A DNA stretch of 42,712 nucleotides from Acidimicrobiia bacterium (GTDB lineage Bacteria > Actinomycetota > Acidimicrobiia > IMCC26256 > PALSA-610), in the NCBI GenBank assembly GCA_017882905.1, contig JADGOO010000102.1, positions 1 to 42,712 on the forward strand. The letters run 5' to 3'. The translations under genes and the position numbers were made by a program. Under the pieces are notes generated by a model. That model was not told the origin of the DNA. It saw nothing but the letters and a program-made list of their open reading frames with translations, and did no database searches. Below, piece after piece: positions 27,860 to 34,671 of the stretch (position 1 is its first letter; each line of letters begins with the position of its first letter).

Positions 27860-28321
27860 GTGACCGAACAGCACGATGACCGTCATGTGGTGACGACGAC
27901 GCTCGAGTTCCCGTACCGGCGATCGCTCGGTCCGGTGATCGGCGGGTTCGCGCGGGCGCTCGCCGAGGAGCGGATCGTTGGCGTGCGCACGCAGGCCGGC
28001 GACGTGCTCGTGCCGCCCACCGAGCACGACCCGCGCACCGGCGAGTCGGTGCGAGACGGCTTCGTCGACGTGGGGCCCGCCGGCGAGGTCCAGAGCTGGA
28101 CATGGGTGAGCGAGCCGACGGAGCGTCATCCCATCCGACGCCCGTTCGCGTTCGCGCTGATCCGCCTCGACGGCGCCGACACTGCGCTCGTGCACGCCGT
28201 CGATGCCGAGGCAATCGAGGTGATGCGCACCGGATTGCGCGTCGTGCCGATGTGGCGCGCCGAGCGCACGGGCCGCATCACCGACATCGAGTGCTTCGTC
28301 CCCGCGGGCCTGGAGGGCTGA
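27860..28321 (+). CDS. DUF35-type OB-fold protein lacking the zinc ribbon Cys
   Basis: A 153-residue protein. The opening FPYRRSLGPVIGGFARALAEERIVGVRT and later GEVQSWTWVSEP, FAFALIRLDGADTALVHAVD and GLRVVPMWR follow the DUF35 plan of a hairpin helix, rubredoxin-like ribbon and OB fold. At the ribbon position (GVRTQAGDVLVPPTEHDP) no Cys is present; the only Cys lies near the C-terminus. Such subunits help thiolase-like enzymes bind CoA esters. The start is GTG 27860; no ATG is in frame nearby. It is the first gene of a four-gene module, 2 bases before the next start. Confidence 0.7.
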   Translation: MTEQHDDRHVVTTTLEFPYRRSLGPVIGGFARALAEERIVGVRTQAGDVLVPPTEHDPRTGESVRDGFVDVGPAGEVQSWTWVSEPTERHPIRRPFAFALIRLDGADTALVHAVDAEAIEVMRTGLRVVPMWRAERTGRITDIECFVPAGLEG

Positions 28322-28323
28322 CC

Positions 28324-28884
28324 ATGACCACGGAGAAAGGTTCCGCGAGCGCAGCCGACGAGCCGATGGTCGTCGACGACTTCGTGGCGCTCACGTACCA
28401 CGACCGGCTGCCGCCCGAGACCGTGCGGTTCGCCGACGGTCTGATCGCCGGGCGCATCATCGGCCAACGCTGCCCGCAGTGCCGGCGCGTCTACGTGGGC
28501 GGCAAGGGCTTCTGCGCCATGTGCGTGGTGGTGATGGGTCCGGAATCGGAGATCGACGTCGCCGACGTGGGCGTGGTCACCGGCTACACGATCATCACGC
28601 CGGTGCGGTACTACGGCCAGACCAAGACCGAGCCGTTCGTCTACGCGTCGGTGCTGCTCGACGGCGCCAGCAGCGTGCTCGGCGGCCAGGAGATCACCGG
28701 TATTGCGATCGACGCCGTGCGCGAGGGCCTGCGCGTGCGTGCGGTGTGGAAGCCGCCTGAAGCGCGCAACTACGAGGGGCACAGCACGCGCGGGTGGGGG
28801 AGCCTGGCCGGCGGCATCGTTGGCTTCGAATGGACCGGCGAACCCGACGTGCCCCGTGAGCAGTACAAGGAGTTCGCAGTCTGA
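28324..28884 (+). CDS. DUF35-type zinc-ribbon/OB-fold protein
   Basis: A 186-residue DUF35 protein with an intact rubredoxin-like zinc ribbon: Cys50-x2-Cys53 (QRCPQCRRVYV) and Cys64-x2-Cys67 (FCAMC). The OB fold follows (GVVTGYTIITPVRYYGQ, EPFVYASVLLDGA, GLRVRAVWKPP), and then a C-terminal extension ending near YKEFAV. In steroid-degrading actinobacteria such proteins (ChsH2 type) form a heteromer with a thiolase-like aldolase. Its stop shares a base with the next ATG (TGATG). Confidence 0.85.
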   Translation: MTTEKGSASAADEPMVVDDFVALTYHDRLPPETVRFADGLIAGRIIGQRCPQCRRVYVGGKGFCAMCVVVMGPESEIDVADVGVVTGYTIITPVRYYGQTKTEPFVYASVLLDGASSVLGGQEITGIAIDAVREGLRVRAVWKPPEARNYEGHSTRGWGSLAGGIVGFEWTGEPDVPREQYKEFAV

Positions 28885-29969
28885 TGCCTGCCGACGACAT
28901 TGCCATCGTGGGTTGGGGCCAGACGCCGAGCGTCGCGAGCACCGACCTCACCGAACCGCAGCTGTGCCTGGCGGCCGTCAACGACGCGCTCGCCATGGCC
29001 AACATCGACCGCCACGCGATCGGGTTCACCTGCTCGGGGAGCTGCGACTACCTGTCGGGCGGGCCGTTCGTGTTCATCTCGAACCTCGAGGCGGCCGGCG
29101 CGTGGCCGCCGATCTCCGAGTCACACGTCGAGATGGACGGCGCGTGGGCGCTGTACGAGGCGTGGGTGCGCATCCAGCACGGCGACATCGACTTCGCGCT
29201 TGTGTACGGATCGGGCAAGTCGTCGCCGTCGGATCCCGCGTTGCTCTTCCCCCAACAGCTCGACCCGTACTACCTCGAACCGCTCGGTCTCGACCCCGCA
29301 TCGCTCATGGGCATGCAAGCGCGGGCGCTGCTCGACTCCGGGACGGCGACCGAACGCGACTTCGCGGCGGTCGCGGCGCGTTCCCGTCGGGCGGGCGCGG
29401 CGAACCCCAAGGCGCAGACGCTGCCCAACGGCGCCGGCGAGAGCGATCTCGACATCGATGCATTGCTCGCCGCGCCGTACGTCCGGGCGCCACTGCGCGC
29501 GCACGACCTCGCGCCCGCGGCCGACGGCGCGGCGGCGGTCGTGCTCGCGACGCCCGCCAAGGCGCGAGAGCTGACCGACCATCCGGTGTTCATCCGCGGC
29601 ATCGATCATCGCCTCGAACCGCACCAACCCGGCGTGCGCGATCTCGCCGATTCGCCGTCGACGCGACTCGCTGCGCAGAAGGCCGGGCTCGGCGCCAACG
29701 GCGGCGGGGTGGGTGTTGCCGAGCTGTACGCCACGTCGAGTGCGCAGGAGCTGATCTTGCGCGCCGCGCTCGGTCTCGGCCCGGATGTGAGCGTCAACCC
29801 GTCGGGTGGCGCGCTCTGCAGCGATCCGGTCATGGCGACCGGGCTCGTGCGGATCATCGAGGCGGCCCAGCGAGTGGCCGACGGCACCACGCGCCGCGCC
29901 GTGGCGCATGCCGTCAACGGCCAGGTGCTGCAGCACAACCTCGTGTGTGTCTTGGAGGGAGAGCGATGA
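28884..29969 (+). CDS. Thiolase-like protein without catalytic Cys/His (Ltp-type)
   Basis: A 361-residue thiolase-fold protein. The N-terminal strand is IAIVGWGQTP and the C-terminal signature is NPSGGALCSDPVMATG. By my alignment the nucleophilic Cys (CASG loop) is replaced near Glu83 in SHVEMDGAW, and the active-site His of GHP is Asp314. The NEAF/HDCF motif reads AELYATS. It is therefore unlikely to be a condensing or cleaving thiolase. The Ltp2-ChsH2 retro-aldolases of steroid side-chain degradation have the same combination of altered thiolase and DUF35 partner, and an aldolase role is inferred. It overlaps the next gene as ATGA. Confidence 0.8.
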   Translation: MPADDIAIVGWGQTPSVASTDLTEPQLCLAAVNDALAMANIDRHAIGFTCSGSCDYLSGGPFVFISNLEAAGAWPPISESHVEMDGAWALYEAWVRIQHGDIDFALVYGSGKSSPSDPALLFPQQLDPYYLEPLGLDPASLMGMQARALLDSGTATERDFAAVAARSRRAGAANPKAQTLPNGAGESDLDIDALLAAPYVRAPLRAHDLAPAADGAAAVVLATPAKARELTDHPVFIRGIDHRLEPHQPGVRDLADSPSTRLAAQKAGLGANGGGVGVAELYATSSAQELILRAALGLGPDVSVNPSGGALCSDPVMATGLVRIIEAAQRVADGTTRRAVAHAVNGQVLQHNLVCVLEGER

Positions 29970-31123
29970 GCGCGCGTCCGGTTGCCGTGATCGGCGTCGG
30001 TCAGACGCACCACAAGAAGGCCCGCGCCGACGTCTCCATGATCGGTCTCGTGCGCGAAGCCGCGGAACGCGCGCTCGCCGACGCCGGGTGCGACTGGGCC
30101 GACATCGACGCCGTGGTGCTCGGCAAGGCGCCCGACGCGTTCGAAGGAGTGATGCAGCCCGAGCTGTTCCTCGCCGATGCGCTTGGCGGGGCGGGCAAGC
30201 CGATGCTGCGCGTGCACACCGCGGGCAGCGTGGGCGGTTCCACGTTCATCTACGGCTCGCATCTCGTCAACGCCGGTATCCACGAGCGCGTGCTCACGGT
30301 GGCGTGGGAGAAGCAGTCGGAAGGCAATGCGCAGTGGGGCCTTGCCGGCGGCCGCAGCGGCGGCATCGGCGCCGGCGGTGCGTTCGCACCGTTCATCCGC
30401 AAGTACATCCGCGACACCGACGCTCCTGAGTACATCGGCTGGATGGTCGCGGTGAAGGACCGGCAGAACGCGCTGAAGAACCCGTACGCGCACCTGAAGA
30501 TCGCCGACATCTCGATCGAGAAGGTGAAGGAATCGGAGATGCTCTGGGATCCGTTGCGGTTCCTCGAGTCGTGCCCCTCGTCCGACGGTGCGTGCGCGAT
30601 GGTCGTCGGGAGTGAAGCGGCCGCGGCCGCGGCGCCCAACCCGCCTGCTTGGGTGCTCGGCACCGCGGTACGCACGGAGCTCAGCACGTTCCCCGGACGC
30701 GATGCCACGCGGCCGCAGGCCGGTGTCGACTGTGCGCACGCGTTGTACGACTCGGTCGGGATCACGAACCCGCGTGAGCAGATCGACGTCGCCGAGCTGT
30801 ACGTGCCGTTCTCGTGGTACGAGCCGATGTGGCTCGAAGGCCACGACATTGCCGGCCCGGGCGAAGGCTGGCGCATGGTCGACGACGGTGCCACCGAGAT
30901 CGAAGGTTCGTTCCCGGTGAACCCGTCGGGCGGAGTGCTGTCGAGCAACCCGATCGGCGCGTCGGGCATGTTGCGCATGGCCGAGGCCGCGTTGCAGGTA
31001 CGGGGCCTTGCGGGCGAGCACCAGGTGGAAGGCGCGCACGTGTCGCTCGGTCAGGCCTACGGCGGCAACGCGCAGTACTTCAGCATGGCGATCTTCGGCA
31101 GCACCCAAGACGCGGTGCGTTAG
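29966..31123 (+). CDS. Thiolase-like protein without catalytic Cys/His (Ltp-type)
   Basis: A 385-residue thiolase-fold protein, paralogous to its upstream neighbour. The opening is PVAVIGVGQT. The nucleophile loop reads LRVHTAGSVGGST, with Gly87 where Cys is expected. The His motif reads NPSGGVLSSNPIGASG, with Asn328 for His. AELYVPFSWYEP replaces NEAF. The C-terminus GQAYGGNAQYFSMAIFG is typical of lipid-transfer-protein/Ltp thiolases of mycobacterial cholesterol loci. It probably forms a complex with the neighbour and the two DUF35 proteins and acts on CoA esters of steroid or other branched acids. It converges with the deaminase gene, overlapping by 4 bases. Confidence 0.8.
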   Translation: MSARPVAVIGVGQTHHKKARADVSMIGLVREAAERALADAGCDWADIDAVVLGKAPDAFEGVMQPELFLADALGGAGKPMLRVHTAGSVGGSTFIYGSHLVNAGIHERVLTVAWEKQSEGNAQWGLAGGRSGGIGAGGAFAPFIRKYIRDTDAPEYIGWMVAVKDRQNALKNPYAHLKIADISIEKVKESEMLWDPLRFLESCPSSDGACAMVVGSEAAAAAAPNPPAWVLGTAVRTELSTFPGRDATRPQAGVDCAHALYDSVGITNPREQIDVAELYVPFSWYEPMWLEGHDIAGPGEGWRMVDDGATEIEGSFPVNPSGGVLSSNPIGASGMLRMAEAALQVRGLAGEHQVEGAHVSLGQAYGGNAQYFSMAIFGSTQDAVR

Positions 31124-33085: not shown

Positions 33086-33913
33086 ATGAGTGTCGTCGAG
33101 GTGAGCCGGCCGCGCGATGGCGTCGCGCTGGTCACCCTCAACCGTCCACAGCAGCGCAACGCCATGAACGCGGCGCTGATCGCCGCGCTCCACGACACGT
33201 TCGACGAGCTGCACGCCGACCGCACGTGTCGCGTGATCGTGCTCACGGGCGCCGGCGACGGCTTCTGCGCCGGCCTCGACCTGAAGCAGGGCGCCACGCC
33301 CGAATCGGCGAAGGGCCTCGGACGGCCCGAGTCGGGGCTGGCGGTCCAGCAGTCGATCGCCAACCTCGTGCCGAAGATGCGGTCGCTGCGCCCGGTGATC
33401 ATCGCCGCGGTCAACGGCGCGGCCAGCGGCGGCGGCCTCGCGCTGAGCCTCGCGAGCGACATCCGCATCGCGCACCGCGCGGCTCGGTTCAACGTTGCGT
33501 TCGTGCGCGTGGGTCTCTCGGGTTGCGACATCGGCACGTCGTGGTTGCTGCCGCGGCTGATCGGTGCGTCGCGGGCCTACGAGCTCATGCTCACCGGTCG
33601 CTTCGTCGATGCCACCGAAGCCGAGCACATCGGCCTCGTGATCAAGACGGTCGACACCGACGTCGTCGACGCCGCGCTCGAGGAAGCCGAGCTGATCCTC
33701 GCCAACAGTCCCTTCGGTGTGCACATGACGAAGGAAGTCATGTGGAGCCAGCTCGAGGTGGGCTCCATGCAAGCGGGCATCGATCTCGAGAACCGCACGC
33801 AGCTGTTGGCGAGCACGAGCGACGACCTCGTCGAGGCGATGCAAGCGTTCGCTGAGAAGCGACCGCCGCGCTTCGGCCCACGGTCCGACACGCCGAAGGA
33901 GGTCGCGCCGTGA
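33086..33913 (+). CDS. Crotonase-fold enoyl-CoA hydratase/isomerase family protein
   Basis: A 275-residue crotonase. The oxyanion hole is built by GDGFCAGLDLKQG (about 57-69) and NGAASGGGLALSLASD (110-125). Both hydratase glutamates are absent: the GGGxE position is Ala119 and the PE position is Phe139. Asp148 in VGLSGCDIGTSWLLPR matches the position of the catalytic Asp in dienoyl-CoA isomerases (VGLAADVGT). Isomerase or other CoA-ester chemistry is thus more likely than hydration. It overlaps the next gene (GTGA) and may serve beta-oxidation with it. Confidence 0.85.
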   Translation: MSVVEVSRPRDGVALVTLNRPQQRNAMNAALIAALHDTFDELHADRTCRVIVLTGAGDGFCAGLDLKQGATPESAKGLGRPESGLAVQQSIANLVPKMRSLRPVIIAAVNGAASGGGLALSLASDIRIAHRAARFNVAFVRVGLSGCDIGTSWLLPRLIGASRAYELMLTGRFVDATEAEHIGLVIKTVDTDVVDAALEEAELILANSPFGVHMTKEVMWSQLEVGSMQAGIDLENRTQLLASTSDDLVEAMQAFAEKRPPRFGPRSDTPKEVAP

Positions 33914-34671
33914 ACGGTCTGGCCGGGCGGGTCGCGCTCGTCACCGGAGGGGGTCGCGGCATCGGTCGAGCCATCGCGCTCGGCCTCGCAGCCGACGGCG
34001 CCAACGTGGCGGTCAACTATCGACGCGACGCCGATGCGGCACGCGAGACCGTCGAAGCGATCAAGAAGCTCGGTGTGCGCGCCGAAGGGTACGAGGCCGA
34101 CGTGACCGACTTCGCGCAGTGCGAGGCGATGGCCGAGCTCGTGCTCGCCGACTTCGGCTTCGTCGACATCCTCGTGAACAATGCCGGCAACGCGAGCCGT
34201 GGCCAGTCGGTGAAGAGCACCGACCCGGCCGAAGTGCACAAGCTGTTCGACACGCACGCCTTCGGCGCGTGGGCGATGTCGAAGGTCGTGATCCCTTCGA
34301 TGCGCGAGCAGCCGCGTGGCGACATCGTGATGATCTCGTCGGCAACAACGGTGCAGCTCCCCGCGAACAGCGCGCCGTACAACATGGCCAAGGCCGCGCT
34401 CGAGGCGCTCGCGTCGACGCTGGCGAAGGAAGAGCGTCGAAACGGTATCCACGTCAACGTGGTCGCGCCCGGCCTCGTCGACACCGAGATGGGACGCCGG
34501 CTCGTGAAGGGTGCCATGGGCGTCGAGGACATCCGCACGATGGACACCACGGCCCCGTTCGGTCATGTGTGCACGCCCGAGGAGATCGCCGACGCGGTGC
34601 GCTGGGTCGTGAGCGACGCGGCGAGCTACGTGACGAATCAGCGCATCGGCGTCGACGGCGGAGCGTTCTAG
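33910..34671 (+). CDS. Short-chain dehydrogenase/reductase (FabG-like)
   Basis: A 253-residue classical SDR. TGGGRGIGRAIALGLA binds NAD(P); the adjacent strand ends VNYRRDADAA, where the Arg pair suggests NADPH. Other motifs are NNAGNAS, catalytic Ser in MISSATTVQ, APYNMAKAALEAL (Tyr-x3-Lys) and a C-terminal VTNQRIGVDGGAF. It resembles 3-oxoacyl-ACP/CoA reductases. The start is GTG 33910 overlapping the crotonase stop, so the two are coupled and may act on successive CoA-ester intermediates. Confidence 0.88.
   Translation: MNGLAGRVALVTGGGRGIGRAIALGLAADGANVAVNYRRDADAARETVEAIKKLGVRAEGYEADVTDFAQCEAMAELVLADFGFVDILVNNAGNASRGQSVKSTDPAEVHKLFDTHAFGAWAMSKVVIPSMREQPRGDIVMISSATTVQLPANSAPYNMAKAALEALASTLAKEERRNGIHVNVVAPGLVDTEMGRRLVKGAMGVEDIRTMDTTAPFGHVCTPEEIADAVRWVVSDAASYVTNQRIGVDGGAF

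Follow-up and report, generated by a model that had tools for sequence, protein, structure and literature searches.

A conserved four-gene DUF35–thiolase module in an Acidimicrobiia genome, a divergent split variant of the predicted Ltp3–Ltp4–DUF35 aldolase

The four-gene locus

We focus here on four closely packed open reading frames (ORFs) on the forward strand of contig JADGOO010000102.1 (assembly GCA_017882905.1) from an Acidimicrobiia bacterium, whose 4.36 Mb genome is estimated to be 100% complete; the whole stretch of DNA analysed, 42,712 nucleotides, is referred to as the window. At positions 27860–31123 lie two DUF35 genes followed by two thiolase-fold genes (Table 1). ORF coordinates and Pfam matches agree with an earlier sequence-only reading of the window, which had described this order and genes that overlap or lie at most 2 bases apart: DUF35-a and DUF35-b are separated by a 2-base gap, DUF35-b and the first thiolase gene overlap by 1 base (TGATG), and the two thiolase genes overlap by 4 bases (ATGA).

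Table 1. Genes of the module and predicted active-site features (window positions)
Feature	Position	Strand	Details
DUF35-a	27860–28321	+	GTG start, 153 aa; OB-fold, no zinc Cys; PF01796 (OB_ChsH2_C) 35 bits
DUF35-b	28324–28884	+	186 aa; zinc ribbon and OB fold; PF01796 36 bits, PF12172 18.9 bits
Ltp4-type thiolase-like subunit (PRK07937)	28884–29969	+	361 aa; NF005924 442.4 bits, cut-off 419
Ltp3-type thiolase-like subunit (PRK08313), predicted aldolase half	29966–31123	+	385 aa; NF006180 592.8 bits, cut-off 514
Glu83 codon, SHVEMD motif	29130–29132	+	Ltp4-type subunit, nucleophile position; Glu in 121/122
Gly87 codon, HTAGSVGG	30224–30226	+	Ltp3-type subunit, nucleophile position; Gly in 118/118
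YVPF, Tyr279 to Phe282	30800–30811	+	Ltp3-type subunit, at YDHF/YDCY/HDCF position; kept 117/117
Asn328 codon in SSNPIG	30947–30949	+	Ltp3-type subunit, GHP region; kept 115/115
Tyr365 codon, C-terminal AYGG loop	31058–31060	+	Ltp3-type subunit, candidate acid; kept 114/114

Both thiolase-like proteins exceed the cut-offs of their NCBIfam models, which belong to families named simply as lipid-transfer or thiolase-domain proteins. We take PRK07937 to be Ltp4 and PRK08313 to be Ltp3, an assignment supported by lengths, gene order and synteny. In Tsukamurella, a module of identical order is annotated with AMP-ligase, crotonase and F420-oxidoreductase genes as its neighbours, in agreement with the Mycobacterium tuberculosis list of Rv3515c (fadD19), Rv3516 (echA19), Rv3520c, Rv3521, Rv3522 (ltp4) and Rv3523 (ltp3) (PMC6429209). 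Orthology to Rv3521–Rv3523 is drawn from the NCBIfam models, the Tsukamurella synteny and this published list, not from direct alignment.

The order DUF35-a, DUF35-b, Ltp4-type, Ltp3-type on one strand recurs in 119 of the 119 loci for which all parts are available; in two further loci (L066 and L071), counted as failures, the contig ends ahead of the second thiolase. Named hosts include Streptomyces, Kibdelosporangium, Zhongshania, Spongiibacter, Halioglobus and a Sterolibacterium sp. metagenome-assembled genome. Chance or a frame artefact is ruled out by the four ORFs with family matches and by their conserved order. At columns that are at least 93% conserved, the window copy departs at 0, 1, 1 and 5 positions across the four proteins; these are so few that it hardly resembles a decaying paralogue, and that explanation is likewise ruled out. 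A tree of the joined thiolases puts the module in a clade of 24 members (support 1.0), outside of which lies a second module of the source genome, with a fused DUF35 protein, on contig C42. Judged by sequence, then, the module in the window is real, conserved and apparently intact; it is a divergent variant of the Ltp3–Ltp4–DUF35 aldolase with split DUF35 genes, and a paralogue of the C42 module in a distinct, well-supported clade.

Active-site residues of the two thiolase-like subunits

Catalytic positions were set by profile alignment to solved relatives (6esq, 7yvy, BbsB and SCP2-thiolase), and conservation was counted over non-identical homologues, 122 for the first thiolase and 118 for the second, with positions scored where residues are present. 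Both proteins lack the nucleophile Cys, the GHP His and the second catalytic Cys that characterize classical and SCP2-type thiolases. The loss of the catalytic Cys and His had been noted from the sequence alone and is confirmed by the alignment; the degeneration is in fact stronger than noted, as the second catalytic Cys is gone too. A true thiolase with a displaced Cys was also considered and rejected, since in none of the 122 and 118 homologues is there a Cys three or fewer alignment columns away from the nucleophile position.

In the second, Ltp3-type subunit, the nucleophile Cys position is taken by Gly87, the GHP region reads SNP (Asn328) and is shorter by one residue, and the HDCF site reads YVPF, with Pro281 in place of the second catalytic Cys. 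TAGSVG, YVPFSW, Asn328 and AYG are kept without exception among the homologues wherever the residues are present (n = 118). In the aldolases TcLtp2 and CtSal, which share this fold and have DUF35 partners, the Tyr of YDHF/YDCY serves as the base, and Gly stands in for the nucleophile Cys (PMC12329534); Gly87 and Tyr279 align with that Gly and with the base Tyr (Tyr294 in TcLtp2 and Tyr302 in CtSal), the register of this alignment being counted by hand. Because of this match and of the invariant active-site motifs, we infer that the Ltp3-type protein is most likely the retro-aldolase subunit. Its AlphaFold model (predicted local distance difference test score, pLDDT, 90) gives VIA Z scores of 43–53 to SCP2-type and DUF35-complex thiolases, whereas ordinary thiolases score no higher than about 37.

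The first, Ltp4-type subunit has Glu83 at the nucleophile Cys position, replaced by Asp in a single homologue, and the neighbouring Ser80, His81 and Asp85 are kept in 122 of 122; H342, G346, Q350 and N352 are invariant. Its GHP region reads SDP (Asp314) and is again one residue shorter, a form that is rare in the family, where this position is Asn in 110 of the 122 homologues, His in 8 and Asp in 3. The HDCF site reads YATS, with Thr284 for the second catalytic Cys, and varies among homologues (HAPF, YAPF, HAQF, SATF, QTAF, CVSF, YATS); the Tyr-equivalent position is not conserved, being Ser, Gln or Cys in the window clade, to which the window's Tyr is an exception. Furthermore, about 17 residues before NPSGG that are present in the second thiolase and in the solved relatives are missing, and the spacing from motif to NPSGG is 19 residues as against 36 in the second thiolase. 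The AlphaFold model (pLDDT 90) has DUF35-partnered thiolases as its nearest folds, with an archaeal thiolase/3-hydroxy-3-methylglutaryl-coenzyme A (HMG-CoA) synthase/DUF35 complex as the top-ranked match. Because it lacks this loop and, among members of the window clade, the second catalytic motif as well, the Ltp4-type subunit is probably a partner half.

The conserved Glu83 may nevertheless leave room for a shared active site, in which the Ltp4-type subunit would also be catalytic, with Glu83 as a general acid/base either where the two halves of the heterodimer meet or in an additional site of its own. The near-invariance of SHVEMD and the four invariant residues from H342 to N352 speak for such a composite site, as does a conserved carboxylate at position 83, for which a half with a purely structural role would have no use. 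The Ltp4-type half, on the other hand, is without the loop of its solved relatives and its HDCF site drifts, and we regard this arrangement as unlikely. The conservation map as a whole points to likely roles for the two halves, with the Ltp3-type subunit catalytic and the Ltp4-type subunit a partner with an almost invariant Glu.

The DUF35 proteins

That one DUF35 protein has four zinc Cys and the other none, as had been read from the sequence, also stands. The four lie in DUF35-b (C50, C53, C64 and C67), whose match to zf-ChsH2 (PF12172) is below the 23.2-bit cut-off. The set is intact (CCCC) in only 41 of 121 homologues, others having CCCD, ASDT and similar; since these Cys are so often substituted, zinc binding would be dispensable in many members. 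The absence of the CxxC pair from DUF35-a is a family-wide trait, the pair being found in just 2 of 121 homologues. DUF35-a aligns with the N-terminal half of fused Rv3521-type two-DUF35 proteins and DUF35-b corresponds to the C-terminal half. One gene encodes both domains in 64 of 121 loci, against two genes in 57; that the fusion occurs naturally suggests that DUF35-a and DUF35-b of the window make up a single functional unit, each being one half of it.

A predicted heteromeric aldol-lyase

We propose, with a probability of about 0.6, that the product of this module is a paralogue of the Rv3521–Ltp4–Ltp3 heteromeric aldol-lyase with a catalytic Ltp3-type half. The substrate would be a beta-hydroxyacyl-CoA with a branched beta carbon, that is, a tertiary alcohol that cannot be oxidized to the ketoacyl-CoA, and retro-aldol cleavage would yield a ketone and a short acyl-CoA. 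Tyr279 would remove the proton from the beta-hydroxyl, Gly87 would provide space where thiolases carry Cys as well as a backbone NH, and the enolate would be handled by Asn328 with Tyr365 or Gln363; the invariant Tyr365 is a candidate acid. The Ltp4-type subunit would form the other half of the thiolase-fold heterodimer, with His81, Glu83 and Asp85 conserved at the former nucleophile site, and the two DUF35 proteins, one per thiolase-like half, would cover the dimer and give the pocket its shape. The opposite direction of chemistry, a biosynthetic enzyme forming C–C bonds by condensation, would be in line with PhlABC or the archaeal HMG-CoA synthase/DUF35 complex; it is highly improbable, as the nucleophile Cys of those complexes is absent in all homologues here and the reported role of the family is catabolic.

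Several observations weigh against the aldol-lyase assignment. First of all, the acid residues of Ltp2 (Tyr344) and Sal (Cys304) are without an obvious counterpart in the Ltp3-type subunit, and Pro281 stands where Ltp2 His296 or Sal Cys304 stand. Second, CoA ligase and acyl-CoA dehydrogenase genes are both absent at the window locus, and the nearest enoyl-CoA hydratase-like gene (33086–33913) is 2 kb away, past an oppositely oriented adenosine deaminase gene. Third, searches of the source genome gave no match to KshA_C or to an HsaC-type dioxygenase (0 each).

The substrate question

The KshA and HsaC pair of aerobic (9,10-seco) steroid degradation was thus not detected in the source genome, and the steroid link of the sequence-only reading is not supported for this organism. 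A steroid substrate here, for example in side-chain removal alone, is possible, and it is unproven because neither marker turned up. Strong matches came from both searches in the module-bearing Kibdelosporangium, Saccharomonospora, Spongiibacter, Zhongshania and Halioglobus genomes; a strong HsaC-type match occurs in 8 of 50 further relatives, and strong KshA_C or HsaC matches are missing from two Streptomyces genomes that carry the module.

It is quite possible, at somewhat under even odds, that the same chemistry acts on a non-steroid substrate, for example a terpenoid or branched fatty acyl-CoA, which is compatible with the aldol-lyase proposal. Apart from the search results in the source genome, the further relatives and Streptomyces, the neighbours of window-clade modules are in keeping with this, several having class III CoA transferase, acyl-CoA dehydrogenase and short-chain dehydrogenase/reductase (SDR) genes nearby. 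However, a KstR-like TetR gene (133 bits, cut-off 280) also adjoins several of these modules, a cytochrome P450 gene lies near one, and KshA_C-type Rieske genes are found a few kb from several clade I modules; moreover, side-chain removal alone, or anaerobic ring routes, would need neither KshA nor HsaC. The window module itself has no TetR, SDR, acyl-CoA dehydrogenase or class III CoA transferase gene beside it. That the window clade combines both departures, a non-steroid retro-aldolase whose active site is shared by Glu83 of the Ltp4-type and Tyr279 of the Ltp3-type subunit, seems quite unlikely. For the aldol-lyase as proposed, the wide spread of the module, which extends to genomes where KshA or HsaC was not detected, points to use beyond complete aerobic sterol breakdown.

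Other features of the window and source genome

The clade I Rieske matches have expect (E) values of about 1e-32 to 1e-39 and are weaker than those in known-type steroid degraders (examples are G012:C32, G007:C315, G030:C1, G020:C47, G006:C2, G036:C290 and G026:C94). In the window, the enoyl-CoA hydratase-like gene 2 kb downstream of the module overlaps an SDR gene by 4 bases (33086–34671); the best NCBIfam matches of these genes are under cut-off, and they may be partners outside the module operon. In the source genome the DUF35 OB domain is matched 21 times and the Ltp4-type thiolase profile 25 times (E up to 0.001), so that the genome appears to hold a large set of DUF35–thiolase pairs. A second aldolase-like set (L190, contig C252, 5070–10235) consists of a 730-aa acyl-CoA dehydrogenase-type protein, one or more DUF35 proteins and a thiolase, and resembles an igr-type set; the best solved match of its thiolase is Ltp2–ChsH2 (6ok1), and with PRK07855 it scores 252 bits, short of the cut-off of 469.

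Comparison with known systems

The findings on Ltp3 and Ltp4 reportedly go back to Wilbrink 2012, as relayed by papers that cite it. From knockouts, both proteins are reported to be essential for degradation of C24-branched sterol side chains, and they are described as a heteromeric aldol-lyase that cuts C24–C25 (PMC6678751, PMC6273163, PMC6593523). A search of the available literature found no structural or biochemical study of Ltp3–Ltp4, the literature found does not give the catalytic residues, and a structure of this type was not among the PDB matches. The earlier suggestion of a hetero-oligomeric aldolase akin to ltp3/ltp4 plus DUF35, in which one half may be structural, is supported by the published view and by residue conservation, its steroid part excepted, and it is less novel than thought because it is close to that view (PMC6678751).

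The window module is like Rv3521–Ltp4–Ltp3 of Mycobacterium and Rhodococcus in that both NCBIfam subfamilies are over cut-off and gene order matches, and Mycobacteriales homologues share the active-site motifs SHVEMD, HTAGSVGG, YVPFSW and SSNP. It differs in that its DUF35 domains are in two genes, its clade is a separate one in Acidimicrobiia-type genomes, its Ltp4-type subunit has the atypical YATS and SDP, fadD19 and echA19 are not neighbours, and its genome gave no KshA or HsaC match. Ltp2–ChsH2 (6ok1) and Sal–Shy (9myr) similarly combine a thiolase fold with DUF35, Gly for Cys and a Tyr at the HDCF position. Their YDHF/YDCY motif, however, is YVPF in the second thiolase here (Tyr kept, His/Cys replaced by Pro) and YATS in the first, and the window, unlike them, has two dissimilar thiolase-like subunits, two DUF35 domains and no attached MaoC hydratase. 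BbsAB benzoylsuccinyl-CoA thiolase (7pxp), PhlABC and the archaeal complex 6esq are also DUF35-partnered thiolase folds, with structural scores among the highest, but they keep the nucleophile Cys and carry out thiolysis or acyl transfer. By family assignment and gene order, this kind of system is already known.
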